From Dysgonomonas sp. BGC7 (GTDB lineage: Bacteria; Bacteroidota; Bacteroidia; Bacteroidales; Dysgonomonadaceae), in NCBI RefSeq assembly GCF_001261735.1, contig NZ_CVRP01000007.1, positions 62,001 through 126,000 of the forward strand: a DNA stretch of 64,000 nucleotides, written 5' to 3'. How positions within the stretch are numbered: position 1 is the first letter of the stretch; each line of letters opens with the position of its first letter. The translations under genes were made by a program, and so were the position numbers. Positions 47,145-51,166 of this stretch are shown here, piece after piece. The notes under the pieces are model-generated. The model was given only the letters and a program-made list of their open reading frames with translations. It had not been told where the DNA came from and ran no database searches.

Positions 47145-48404
47145 ATGGAATTAGTTTTCACTTTAATAATACTTATTATTGCTGCTGTATTTATTTGTCT
47201 TCTGGCGAGAAATAGCAAAATGAAAGAAAATGAATTGCGCTCACAAATTGATCGTCTCATACAGGAAAAAGACGCTTTGGGAGAAGAGAGAATAGAAAAT
47301 ATACGCCAGATAGCAGAAGCAGAAGCTATGCTACAAGCCAAGGATATGCAGATGAAAAGTCAGCAGGAAGAACTGACGAATACCCGAAATCAGCTAAATA
47401 AAGACTTCCAGATATTAGCTAATCAGATATTAGAAGAGAAAACCCTGCGATTTACCGATGTCAATAAGTCCAATATGGAGGCGATACTAAAGCCTTTGAA
47501 TGAAAAGCTCGTAGAGTTCAGGACGAAAGTTGAGGAGACGTATGATAAGGAGTCGAAGCAGCGATTTTCGTTAGAAGAACGTATTCGAGAGCTTGTGGCG
47601 TTGAATAATCAGATAAGTGAAGATGCCAATAATCTGACGAAAGCACTGAAGGGGAATAATAAGGTGCAAGGTAACTGGGGTGAGATGATTCTCGAATCTA
47701 TATTGGAGAAATCGGGGCTAAAGAAGGGTGAGGAGTATTTCGCTCAGGAATATATAGTGGACGAAAACGGAAACCGAGTGCGAAATGAACTCGAGAATTA
47801 TATGCAGCCGGATATTGTTGTTGCCTATCCGGGTGGACGTAAGATTATCATAGACTCTAAAGTCTCATTGAGCGCGTATGTAAAATATGTAGAGTCCGAA
47901 ACCGATGAGTTGAAAATCGTAGCAGAGAAGGAGCATGTATTATCTATAAAACAGCATATAGACGAGCTTAGCCGTAAATCGTATCAGGATTATGTAGAAT
48001 CCCTCGATTTTGTAATGATGTTCATCCCCAACGAACCGGCATATATATTGGCAATGCAGCTCGATTCAGGACTTTGGGATTATGCCTACAAAAAACGTAT
48101 ATTGCTGATTAGTCCTACCAATCTGATAGCATCACTAAAGGTCGTTGCCGACTTGTGGAAGCGGGAGTATCAAAGCCGTAATGCTATTGAAATTGCCAAG
48201 CGCGGAGCCGCTCTATACGATAAGTTTGCTGGCTTTGTAGATACATTGCAAGATGTAGGGAAAAATATCGAGCGTTCTCAAAAAGCATATGATAAAGCCT
48301 TTTCTCAGTTGAAAGAAGGTAATGGAAATTTGATACGGCAGGCAGAAATGCTTAAAGAACTGGGTATTAAAGCTCAAAAAGAACTTCCAGATAGCGATGT
48401 ATAG
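47145..48404 (+). CDS. rmuC: RmuC family protein
   Basis: 419 residues. One N-terminal membrane helix (about 3-22), a long coiled coil (about 25-100), then the RmuC domain with NNKVQGNWGEMILESILEKSG (split at about 167-187), PDIVVAYPGGRKIIIDSKVS and FIPNEPAYILAM. The core is a PD-(D/E)XK-like nuclease fold. In E. coli RmuC limits inversions at short repeats. It is divergent from the HExxH-Msr operon. Confidence 0.93.
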   Translation: MELVFTLIILIIAAVFICLLARNSKMKENELRSQIDRLIQEKDALGEERIENIRQIAEAEAMLQAKDMQMKSQQEELTNTRNQLNKDFQILANQILEEKTLRFTDVNKSNMEAILKPLNEKLVEFRTKVEETYDKESKQRFSLEERIRELVALNNQISEDANNLTKALKGNNKVQGNWGEMILESILEKSGLKKGEEYFAQEYIVDENGNRVRNELENYMQPDIVVAYPGGRKIIIDSKVSLSAYVKYVESETDELKIVAEKEHVLSIKQHIDELSRKSYQDYVESLDFVMMFIPNEPAYILAMQLDSGLWDYAYKKRILLISPTNLIASLKVVADLWKREYQSRNAIEIAKRGAALYDKFAGFVDTLQDVGKNIERSQKAYDKAFSQLKEGNGNLIRQAEMLKELGIKAQKELPDSDV

Positions 48405-48414
48405 TTAAATTATA

Positions 48415-48556
48415 TTAATATTCGCAATAAAAACAGGTAAACATGTTTTATAACATAAAAAATAGCTTATCTTTGTACTGTGTTTTTCATGGTATTAGAT
48501 TTAAGGTTAACAATGAAGATTGGTTGTCGTGATGACAACCTTTTCTTTTTTATATA
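48415..48556 (+). repeat. Duplicated intergenic unit, copy 1
   Basis: About 142 bases that recur at 50468-50609 with about four differences, all in the first third; the last 88 bases are identical. The unit spans a promoter, a short transcribed region and a terminator. It also contains an AAACATGTTT palindrome at 48439-48448 just upstream of the promoter box. Confidence 0.9.
48480..48551 (+). ncRNA. Predicted small RNA, copy 1
   Basis: A perfect -7 box TATCTTTG (48468-48475) is followed by about 72 transcribed bases ending in the stem GGTTGTC-N5-GACAACC and a TTTTCTTTTTT tail. The palindrome AAACATGTTT overlaps the expected -33 region and could be an operator. A 22-codon open frame starting at 48489 runs through the hairpin; since the terminator is inside it, RNA function is more likely than peptide. 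The gene follows rmuC by 75 bases. The RNA family is not named with certainty; it may belong to the paralogous small RNAs known in Bacteroidales. Confidence 0.65.
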
Positions 48557-48581
48557 AGTTTACTTTTGCAATTAATAGGCC

Positions 48582-49436
48582 TTACAATCTGTCATAAGCT
48601 ATAGAAAATGTATCTCCGTTATCAATATTTCCTGTTTGTAGCCCTTTTTTTAGCCACCTAGTACGTTGAGCAGAGGTTCCATGATTGAAACTGTCAGGCA
48701 CAGTATAACCTTGCGATTGCATTTGCAAACGATCATCCCCTATCTGAGAAGCAGCATTCAAGCCTTCTTCTATATCGCCATCTTCTAACGAATTAAAGTT
48801 TTCGTTATCGTGGTAAGCCCATACTCCGGCATAAAAGTCTGCTTGTAATTCTAGTCTTACATTGAATTGATTACTTTCTTTCTCACTTAGCCGTTGTTGT
48901 TGATTGTGCACTTTATCTAATGTCCCAAGGAGGTATTGAACATGATGTCCTACTTCGTGTGCTATAACATAGGCATAAGCAAAATCTCCTCCTGCATTTA
49001 GGCGGCTATTCATCTCGTTGAAGAATGACAAATCTATATAAACAGTTTGATCGGCGGGACAATAAAACGGGCCTGTAGATGACGATGCGTTGCCACAACC
49101 GGAACGTGTAACTCCACTGAATAAGACCATACGTGGCGGAGTATACTTAGCTCCTCGTTGTTTAAATATTTCTGTCCATACATCCTCTGTTCCTGCCAGA
49201 ATAGTTTTAGCAAAAGTAGCGGCTTTTTCTTCTTCTGCTGAGGGTGTATAGTTCTTCTCCGTTTCTATACCATCAGATACTTGTTGTGTAATTACATCAA
49301 GAGGGTTACCTCCCATAATCCAGATCAATAGTCCTACTATTATAGTTCCTCCTATGCCAAGAGATATTTTTCCAGACGATCCTTTGCCTCTGCGATCGTC
49401 AACATTGTCGCTCGTTCTTCTTCCTCCAAGTCTCAT
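48582..49436 (-). CDS. Neutral zinc metallopeptidase, YpfJ-like
   Basis: 284 residues. A short basic N-terminus, one membrane helix (about 26-43), then a soluble domain containing YVIAHEVGHHVQYLLG (HExxH zinc site, near residue 160) and LQADFYAGVWA with the third ligand. This is the putative neutral zinc metallopeptidase family (YpfJ). The substrate is unknown; it likely faces the periplasm. The gene lies between the two small-RNA copies and has copy B of the bipartite element 74 bases upstream. Confidence 0.9.
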   Translation of the reverse strand: MRLGGRRTSDNVDDRRGKGSSGKISLGIGGTIIVGLLIWIMGGNPLDVITQQVSDGIETEKNYTPSAEEEKAATFAKTILAGTEDVWTEIFKQRGAKYTPPRMVLFSGVTRSGCGNASSSTGPFYCPADQTVYIDLSFFNEMNSRLNAGGDFAYAYVIAHEVGHHVQYLLGTLDKVHNQQQRLSEKESNQFNVRLELQADFYAGVWAYHDNENFNSLEDGDIEEGLNAASQIGDDRLQMQSQGYTVPDSFNHGTSAQRTRWLKKGLQTGNIDNGDTFSIAYDRL

Positions 49437-49910
49437 ATCTTAATATTTATGTGAATCAATAGTTTGTTTTAACTGAAACATCTGCTTACCCGACTACGGT
49501 AAAAATACGATTTTAACTAAAACCTGACAAAGTTGTACAACTTTCCTTTAAATTTTTCATATTCATCACTTTTTTTCTTCTTTCTATCAATCTACCTATT
49601 CACCTTTATATAGATAAACTTTTGTTACCCTTACAGTAAATCTTTATCCGGCGTAAGTATAATCTAAATACTCATTATCAATATTTATAATTATGTGTAT
49701 TTTACTAGAGTGATAATGTATTTGGATTTAAACGTATATACTTTCTTTTTTGTTTGAAAATAAGGTGCTTAATCTATTCTTGTTTAAATATTCTTAAATT
49801 GGATATTGTTTTCTAGAAAGTACCTCTCCGTATACAAACAAAAAGAGAATTGTAATGTTTCTATTATATATATTCTTAAGTGTTTAGAGAAGATACTAAA
49901 AATCAACAAT
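49437..49910. other. Divergent intergenic region between YpfJ-like and DUF4251 genes
   Basis: About 474 bases when the downstream start is taken at 49911. It holds copy B of the bipartite element (49511-49639). The remaining 270 bases are AT-rich; an in-frame upstream ATG at 49806 leads to residues unlike a signal peptide and is not used. No good -7 box was seen for the DUF4251 gene. Confidence 0.45.
49511..49639 (+). repeat. Repeated bipartite intergenic element, copy B
   Basis: TTTTAACTAAAA (49511-49522), CCTGAC, then AAAGTTGTACAACTTT (49529-49544), a perfect 16-base palindrome, a 65-70 base pyrimidine-rich spacer, and TATAGATAAACTTTTG with TTACCCTTACAGTAA (49609-49639). Read on minus it points at the YpfJ-like gene. 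Confidence 0.7.
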
Positions 49911-50447
49911 ATGAAAGCAATAAAATTTTTGTCAATGTTATTAATTGTTACATTGACCGGATGTAAAACTCAACAGAATCCTGTTAAGCAAGCATTACAA
50001 GACGCAGAGAATAGAGCATGGTTCGAGAAAGCTGTTCAGGCATTAAATGAACAGGCATTTGTACTGGAAGCAGATAAGATTACCTTTAAGCATGGACATT
50101 TTACTTATGTAACATCAAATACTAATTTTATATCTATGCATGATAAAAAAGCAACTATACAAATGGCTTTTAATTCTCCATATGCAGGTCCTAATGGCAT
50201 AGGTGGTATTACTGTAGACGGTACTGTTTCGAATGTGCAAATGAGTACAGATAAGAAAGGAAATATATCTTATAGCATGATGGTAACTGGTATTGGGGTA
50301 TCTGCCTCTGTTTTTATCAATATGTATGAGGGCACAAATCAATGTACAGCTACAATATATCCTAATTTTAGTGGTAATATAATAACTTTCTCAGGTAATT
50401 TATATCCTGAGGATGAGTCAAATGTATTTAAAGGACGAGCTCTATAA
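49911..50447 (+). CDS. DUF4251 family lipoprotein
   Basis: About 178 residues from the ATG at 49911, which begins a clear lipoprotein signal (LLIVTLTGCKTQ, Cys at about 17). The mature part (residues 35-178) matches the DUF4251 pattern: a helix, then beta strands with NSPYAGPNGIGGITVDGTVS and a closing NIITFSGNLYPEDESNVFKG. The family is Bacteroidetes-specific, exported, of unknown function. The gene is directly followed (20 bases) by copy 2 of the duplicated small-RNA unit. Confidence 0.82.
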   Translation: MKAIKFLSMLLIVTLTGCKTQQNPVKQALQDAENRAWFEKAVQALNEQAFVLEADKITFKHGHFTYVTSNTNFISMHDKKATIQMAFNSPYAGPNGIGGITVDGTVSNVQMSTDKKGNISYSMMVTGIGVSASVFINMYEGTNQCTATIYPNFSGNIITFSGNLYPEDESNVFKGRAL

Positions 50448-50467
50448 TACAATTTAGTTAAATAACG

Positions 50468-50609
50468 TTAATATTGCTAATAAAAACAGGTAAACATGTT
50501 TTATAACATAAAAAATCGCTTATCTTTGTACTGTGTTTTTCATGGTATTAGATTTAAGGTTAACAATGAAGATTGGTTGTCGTGATGACAACCTTTTCTT
50601 TTTTATATA
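50468..50609 (+). repeat. Duplicated intergenic unit, copy 2
   Basis: Near-identical to 48415-48556, offset by exactly 2053 bases. The differences are ATTGCTAAT versus ATTCGCAAT at the left end and one base (TCGC versus TAGC) just before the promoter box. Confidence 0.9.
50533..50604 (+). ncRNA. Predicted small RNA, copy 2
   Basis: The same architecture as copy 1: TATCTTTG at 50521-50528, about 72 bases, terminator stem at 50575-50593 and T-rich tail. It lies between the DUF4251 gene (same strand) and rsmD (opposite strand). Its predicted transcript is identical in sequence to copy 1 over the whole length except possibly the last bases after the T-run. Confidence 0.65.
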
Positions 50610-50620
50610 CATCTAATCTG

Positions 50621-51166
50621 TTATTCGGAAGGTTTTCTAAAGATACTGAAGTTTACACTGCCATACACACGTTTATTTTCAAATAGTGGTAAATCTGAAA
50701 AATCATACTCCTTCGAATGTTCCAGAATAAATATTCCACCTGCTTTTATTAAATCTTTTTCGAAAACCAGCCGGGGAACTTCTGTGAAGTTTTTCATATC
50801 GTAAGGAGGGTCGGCAAAGATAAGGTCAAATTGCTCTTTACAATGTTCCAGATAGCTGAATACATCCATTTTGAGTAGTATCATTTCCGAACCAATCTTA
50901 AGCTCCGCTTTTGTTTTTTCGATGAATGATGTGTGATTGAAATTCTTTTCTACACAGACTACACGAGGGCACTCTCTCGACACCAGTTCGAAACTTATAC
51001 CACCTGTTCCTCCAAATAGATCTAAAGCTGTTGTATCTTCCCAGTCTATTTCATTATTTAGTACATTAAACAGATTTTCTTTTGCAAAATCTGTGGTCGG
51101 ACGTGCTTTGAAACTTTTAGGTGGGTTGAACCTGCGACCTTTATATTTTCCGCTGATAATTCTCAT
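50621..51166 (-). CDS. rsmD: 16S rRNA (guanine966-N2)-methyltransferase RsmD
   Basis: 181 residues. RIISGKYKGRRFNPP and RPTTDFAKENLFNVLNN are the family's N-terminal signature; ALDLFGGTGGISFELVSR is the SAM-binding loop and FADPPYDMK the (N/D)PPY catalytic motif. It methylates G966 of 16S rRNA during 30S assembly. Its start overlaps the DUF3822 stop, a conserved pairing in Bacteroidetes. Confidence 0.95.
   Translation of the reverse strand: MRIISGKYKGRRFNPPKSFKARPTTDFAKENLFNVLNNEIDWEDTTALDLFGGTGGISFELVSRECPRVVCVEKNFNHTSFIEKTKAELKIGSEMILLKMDVFSYLEHCKEQFDLIFADPPYDMKNFTEVPRLVFEKDLIKAGGIFILEHSKEYDFSDLPLFENKRVYGSVNFSIFRKPSE

Follow-up and report, generated by a model that had tools for sequence, protein, structure and literature searches.

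Twin FopS small RNA genes of Dysgonomonas sp. BGC7 carry a palindrome matching the Cur (BT4338) consensus at their promoters

The small RNA family FopS (RF04319, BTncRNA_FopS) is known from Bacteroides thetaiotaomicron, in which others showed that RbpB binds FopS and that translation of SusC is repressed. This organism has 14 FopS copies, which are reported to have canonical sigma-ABfr promoters (-33 TTTG and -7 TAnnTTTG). The founding paper reports conservation within the Bacteroidaceae, does not name Dysgonomonas in its text, and invokes an 'unknown transcriptional regulator' (PMC11697453). Here we describe two FopS genes in a stretch of 64,000 nucleotides from Dysgonomonas sp. BGC7 (NZ_CVRP01000007.1, positions 62,001 to 126,000; hereafter the window). 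The FopS family and the repression of SusC were known already; what is new here is a Cur-type palindrome at FopS promoters. With control by Cur read from this site, the twin genes probably pass carbon status to the translation of SusC proteins.

Cur (BT4338) is a Crp-family protein, and a study by Ravcheev et al. (2013, PMC3878776) gave wwwTATGTTnTAnAACATAwww as the consensus of the global sugar regulon assigned to it. Townsend et al. (2020, PMC6989115) determined that BT4338 needs such a site for binding and activating fusA2, and BT4338 is described there as highly conserved across Bacteroidetes. Ryan et al. (2024, PMC10994844) determined that Cur activates MasB of B. thetaiotaomicron, which by its description is also a small RNA under the master carbohydrate regulator, with a different target (BT_1675). 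Additionally, Pearce et al. (2023, PMC10294740) suggested that an unknown small RNA or RNA-binding protein mediates the action of Cur on Roc; overproduction of BTnc140, BTnc195 and BTnc364 left Roc unaffected. In the main text of the FopS paper BT4338 is absent and Cur is mentioned in one passage, for comparison (PMC11697453). Our literature search, which left most subscription journals outside, found no paper joining Cur and FopS, and a search for Dysgonomonas together with small RNAs found none either.

Both genes of the window are full-length matches to the RF04319 covariance model (model positions 1-71 of 71) at 81.4 bits, against a gathering cut-off of 56, and they lie on the forward strand at 48480..48552 and 50533..50605. 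A sequence-only reading had described two units of 142 bases on the same strand, 2053 bases apart and differing at about four positions, each with a perfect promoter box, about 72 transcribed bases and a GGTTGTC-N5-GACAACC hairpin with a T-rich tail, and had taken them for a duplicated locus of paralogous Bacteroidales small RNAs. The units were found exact to the base at 48415-48556 and 50468-50609 with four differences, the box TATCTTTG lies at 48468..48475 and 50521..50528, and the hairpin, followed by its T-rich tail, lies at 48522..48540 with the same letters at 50575..50593. By the RF04319 model the predicted transcript is 73 nucleotides long. It consists of the same letters in both twins, as had been predicted, within an identical run of 92 bases (48465-48556 and its counterpart). 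The repeat carrying promoter, gene and terminator reaches 155 bases (48402..48556 and 50455..50609, 95% identity, 7 differences). The sequence-only reading had also proposed the Rfam search and an alignment across Dysgonomonas for compensatory changes, and such changes are present: each of the 65 distinct aligned copies forms all 7 pairs of the terminator stem, and 5 of the 7 pairs show two-sided changes (row L219 was dropped as the wrong stretch, and the truncated transcripts L028 and L029 were left unaligned).

The twin genes specify the same FopS small RNA, by sequence an ordinary member of the family. They resemble FopS of B. thetaiotaomicron in sequence, length, single-stranded 5' seed, terminator hairpin, the presence of several paralogues and predicted SusC targets, and differ from it in copy number (five in this genome) and in the promoter. 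The unit exceeds chance, with a full-length covariance match, five copies in the genome and matches over the cut-off in all 25 Dysgonomonas genomes searched (1 to 8 matches per genome). In a survey of 149 Bacteroidales genomes, 34 hold a FopS match at E 0.001 and 27 a match over the cut-off. Membership in the GibS family (RF04182) was rejected: the 5' R1 seed stretch of GibS is common to the twins, but with 42.5 and 41.7 bits they stay far under its cut-off of 115, and GibS was over its cut-off in 0 of the 149 genomes.

The promoter is where the window copies depart from what is reported for B. thetaiotaomicron. Of the canonical sigma-ABfr promoter, a trait that stands outside the Rfam model, the twins have the -7 box; the -33 position is occupied by a palindrome, ATGTTNTANAACAT, in them and in most FopS copies at the same locus, between rmuC and rsmD, across Dysgonomonas. 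The 22-bp site lies at 48439..48460 and 50492..50513 (core ATGTTTTATAACAT at 48443-48456 and 50496-50509). The palindrome pattern was fixed from FopS alignments before the published Cur consensus was consulted, and its core is that consensus letter for letter. Each twin agrees with 19 of the 20 specified positions, with C for T at the fourth, and the two sites are the best matches to the Cur consensus in the window (next best 17).

A census of promoters covered 110 of the 130 FopS matches in the genus, and four classes were seen. Class A (51/110) has the palindrome, whose first base lies between -38 and -35. Class B (22/110) has the canonical -33 TTTG and -7 box, and 14 of its members lie by a gene that we take, from the start of its protein, to be ackA. 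Class E (15/110) has a variant seed and mostly canonical boxes, and 11 members lie by what is, on the same basis, presumably clpC. Class C (16/110) has no -7 box and an AAC...GTTAATATTAT-like element. Three further copies have the -7 box only, and three have unreadable upstream sequence. The palindrome sites of class A reach at least 19 of 20 Cur positions in 47 of 51 cases, and the best score among the 53 copies of classes B, C and E is 16. Promoter type goes with seed variant: nucleotide 12 of the seed, whose pairing partner lies immediately ahead of the target AUG, is G in 49/51 class A copies and A in 22/22 class B copies. The genome of the window holds the two class A twins and one copy each of classes B, C and E, and promoter diversification is real between the twins and these three other genes. 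In class C (L004 at G000:C7:338811-338883 and 15 others) the AAC...CGTTAATATTAT-like element resembles an alternative (ECF-type) sigma promoter, to which PM2 of B. thetaiotaomicron may be related; a scan of the same genome for GAAC-N15-18-CGTTAATATTA returned only the FopS copy itself at that strictness. Most class E copies (L005 and 14 others) have the variant seed GTATTTTT...TTTATGGTTAGGAG, and their targets may differ from those of other FopS.

Genomes were then scanned for the palindrome followed by a -7 box at 7-14 bases, a single range of spacings, with the reversed pattern as control. In the 25 Dysgonomonas genomes 51 places were found, 49 of them at FopS by coordinates (control 1); three unclear places were read individually and two proved to be FopS. 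In the 149 Bacteroidales genomes there were 25 places, 17 at FopS and 8 elsewhere (control 3), and 24 of the 25 belong to the 34 genomes that hold a FopS match. The places away from FopS include pflB (twice), gapA and the genes for biotin carboxylase, PRPP synthetase and a DUF2582 protein; pflB is placed in the regulon by Ravcheev et al. (PMC3878776). In the genome of the window a bare palindrome (L208, G000:C17:12408-12421) lies about 70 bases before the glyceraldehyde-3-phosphate dehydrogenase gene gapA, downstream of a TATTTTTG box. A scan of named genomes for the palindrome, TTTGTACT and a seed with G at nucleotide 12 returned 54 stretches, from Dysgonomonas to records of Muribaculaceae, Tannerellaceae, Symbiothrix and Paludibacter; none was titled Bacteroides, and the pattern is blind to copies with A at this position. 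Among plasmid records, no Bacteroides row was present in the matches listed for CRP (60 of 1212) or for EF-G (60 of 118).

The near exclusivity of the pattern for FopS within Dysgonomonas bears on a different reading, in which the palindrome is bound not by Cur but by another, possibly FopS-dedicated regulator, for example of envelope or bile stress. From a global sugar regulator one might expect a larger number of sites, and FopS copies of B. thetaiotaomicron respond to bile salts, possibly via an unknown regulator (PMC11697453). We regard this as possible but rather unlikely: the core is identical to a consensus that was met only after the pattern had been set, in genomes beyond Dysgonomonas this arrangement is also found ahead of pflB, gapA and other genes of central metabolism, the scan covered one spacing range, and a bare site stands before gapA in the genome of the window. 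It is unlikelier still that the palindrome is an intrinsic promoter element, a variant upstream box of one FopS subfamily that needs no regulator. The palindrome does occupy the position of the -33 box of the other classes and does travel with FopS, but its dyad symmetry suits a dimeric protein, as do the variation of its centre and of its distance from the -7 box (reflected in its start at -38 to -35), and it also precedes unrelated genes.

Binding by Cur is also consistent with what is seen in FopS copies from other genera. Two copies of Parabacteroides distasonis have a site that is closely similar to that of class A and scores 16 and 17 of 20. The Bacteroides-type copies, from B. ovatus (L329), B. 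finegoldii (L331), phage BX-TP2 (L328), genome G082 and several viral contigs, show both canonical boxes, at -33 and -7, and A at seed nucleotide 12, where the window copies have G. When 100 upstream bases were read, a Cur-like ATGTTATAARACAY-like element was found upstream of the canonical boxes, beyond the nearest 62 bases: 12 distinct copies have it at -67 and 3 have it at -79, and it departs from the 12-letter core by 0 to 3 mismatches. No such element was found in the 100 bases upstream of L305, L321 and L329 (the last with the letters of L305). These copies are related, so the common position of the element is partly ancestry. The centres of the element, about -60.5 and -72.5, are near the class I positions from which E. 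coli CRP activates. Class B copies of Dysgonomonas mostly have no upstream element (21/22 show at least 4 mismatches).

The proposed consequence depends on the targets of the seed. Start regions of SusC genes were usable for 55 of 56 genes in the genome of the window (one was too short), and a second Dysgonomonas genome (G002) was represented by the 30 best of 33 SusC matches over the cut-off. In the first genome the mean energy of the seed-SusC duplex is -16.2 kcal/mol (n=55) against -12.7 +/- 0.5 for 60 dinucleotide-shuffled seeds, none of which was as good, and against -13.0 kcal/mol for the starts of 56 open reading frames of at least 150 aa taken mechanically from the window (P 6e-8). The mean in G002 is -16.4 kcal/mol (n=30) against -12.7, again with 0/60 shuffles as good. 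The controls were no better than shuffles, with 37/60 as good for the window reading frames and 24/60 for 30 SusC interiors. An energy of -18 kcal/mol was reached by 17/55 SusC starts, 0/56 window reading frames and 1/30 SusC interiors, and several of the top sites have CTAATA(N)CATG-like letters over the start codon. A plain search with the complement of 22 seed bases at up to 3 mismatches served less well than duplex energies: besides the five FopS genes it returned three sites, each with 3 mismatches. The sequence-only reading was right that the two copies share predicted targets. Three RRM_1 genes are present in the genome.

It is proposed that each twin would yield a 73-nucleotide transcript made up of an unstructured 5' seed, GUGUUUUUCAUGGUAUUAGAUUUAAGG (about 48480-48510 and 50533-50563), and an intrinsic terminator. 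The seed would pair across the start codon of mRNAs for SusC-like importers and block their translation, probably with single-RRM proteins of the RbpB type as partners. A Crp-family carbon regulator orthologous to Cur would control both copies via the palindrome at -33, and the level of FopS would in this way report carbon status to SusC translation. We lean towards activation under carbon limitation, which would make an incoherent feed-forward loop that restrains the SusC proteins of idle loci, because the tested Cur sites of B. thetaiotaomicron (fusA2 and masB) activate and because the Bacteroides-type element lies near class I positions. Repression of the window copies, through a site that covers the -33 position, is nearly as likely. 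CRP represses Spot 42 in E. coli, and both Spot 42 and CyaR are CRP-controlled small RNAs of that organism that repress uptake or outer-membrane genes; they are unrelated to FopS as RNAs and the analogy is one of wiring only.

Extended to the order, the balance tips slightly towards FopS being a small-RNA arm of the Cur regulon across Bacteroidales, with Cur as the FopS regulator that was sought. FopS would then be the counterpart of Spot 42 or CyaR and would be wired in two ways: by the palindrome at -33 in Dysgonomonas and other families, and in Bacteroides-type copies by the class-I-like element that lies, at -67 or -79, upstream of a canonical promoter. With the further paralogues of Dysgonomonas genomes, which have canonical promoters near ackA, canonical promoters near clpC and alternative-sigma-like promoters, one SusC-silencing seed would collect several signals.

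Several observations weigh against control by Cur or against the proposed targeting. The centre of the window site, at about -30.5, differs from that of the class II sites of E. coli CRP, at -41.5, and all positions are counted from a transcription start taken as the 5' end of the Rfam model. The tested fusA2 site scores 15/20, so the score fails to divide bound from unbound sites, and 10 of the 53 copies of classes B, C and E reach 15 or 16; since fusA2 is bound at 15, lower scores do not rule binding out. In most elements of the Bacteroides type the left arm is kept and the right arm has decayed. An E. coli CRP query against 2.18 Mb of DNA gave no convincing match, and no family-based search of the genome for Cur was made. 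On the side of the RNA, the single-sequence fold is unexceptional (z -1.44, with 17/200 shuffles at least as stable). In G002 other gene starts near susC also beat the shuffles (-14.8 kcal/mol; 0/60), and the excess of SusC over these starts is weak (P 0.037; -18 kcal/mol reached by 13/30 against 7/54).

The sequence-only reading had further suggested that the twins might be expressed differently owing to operator changes. All four differences between the 142-base units do lie upstream of the -7 box, at 48423-48425 (three adjacent) and 48464, or about -57 to -55 and -16. They miss the palindromic site, so operator changes are unsupported: the operator-like core and the -7 box are the same in both copies, and the differences fall in stretches that vary among class A copies. 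Divergence in expression through these changes is very doubtful.

The genes around the twins concern the origin of the pair. The left neighbour is rmuC (47145..48404, forward strand, PF02646) and the right neighbour an rsmD-like methyltransferase gene (50621..51166, reverse strand, PF03602). The YpfJ-like peptidase and DUF4251 lipoprotein that had been named between the units were recovered as a neutral zinc metallopeptidase at 48582..49436 (reverse strand, PF04228, Zn_peptidase) and a lipoprotein at about 49911..50447 (forward strand, PF14059, scanned from 49914). A class A FopS stands directly downstream of rmuC in 21 of the 25 genus genomes, and in the remaining four rmuC was outside the stretches examined. 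rsmD was seen in 13 genus genomes and adjoins a class A FopS in 11 of them. One copy lies between rmuC and rsmD in G021, two lie 0.4 kb apart in G002, G004 and G020, and four lie there in G006. The genes between copies vary, from the zinc peptidase and DUF4251 genes of the window to groES-groEL-like genes in G015, a label that we assign from the sequence, and a small HTH-like gene in G010; in G014 groES-groEL-like genes have a class A copy on one side and a class B copy on the other. No tblastn match to the window peptidase or DUF4251 protein was found in the examined genus stretches of other genomes. Since the intervening genes differ between species and these two had no match in those stretches, the best reading of the twins is a tandem pair of FopS genes that other genes have come to separate, not a conserved cassette with the peptidase.

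Upstream sequences resemble each other more closely when two class A copies come from one genome (0.829, 39 pairs) than when they come from different genomes (0.786, 1236 pairs), a difference reached in 0/500 label shuffles, and this fits gene conversion or local duplication. The pair seems to have arisen by local duplication at the rmuC-rsmD locus, and it raises dosage rather than diversity. In G001, G005 and G019 rmuC and rsmD are apart and each retains its own FopS, which suggests recombination at FopS repeats; in G001:C17, G005:C23, G012:C3 and G019:C1 the two genes are separated by about 12 to 87 kb or reoriented.

FopS also occurs on phage records. The exact seed was found in 24 stretches of viral contigs (L304-L327), ten of which (L304, L308, L309, L314, L316-L318, L320, L322 and L323) are without a host-type promoter and have other hairpins, and the induced Bacteroides phage BX-TP2 carries a full FopS gene. 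FopS made by a phage could silence host SusC proteins. The letters of L304 and L323 had suggested that their seeds directly adjoin tRNA genes, which ARAGORN did not confirm. These records, and the direct repeats flanking genes that differ between species, might suggest that each unit represents the end of a mobile element or a terminator of read-through transcription rather than a gene, which is scarcely credible given the full covariance match, the retention of its own promoter and terminator, the two-sided stem changes, the place of a class A FopS after rmuC in 21 of the 25 genomes, and the finding of no recognised transposase among the open frames between copies (no family search was run on the frames of other genomes).

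The promoter feature makes the twins worth follow-up despite their ordinary family sequence. A Cur-type site at FopS joins two open questions, the regulator of FopS and the intermediary between Cur and Roc. If the reading is true, one master switch would govern both the transcriptional choice of sugars and the translational silencing of SusC, and the link between Cur and FopS could bring together two halves of the carbon control of gut bacteria.

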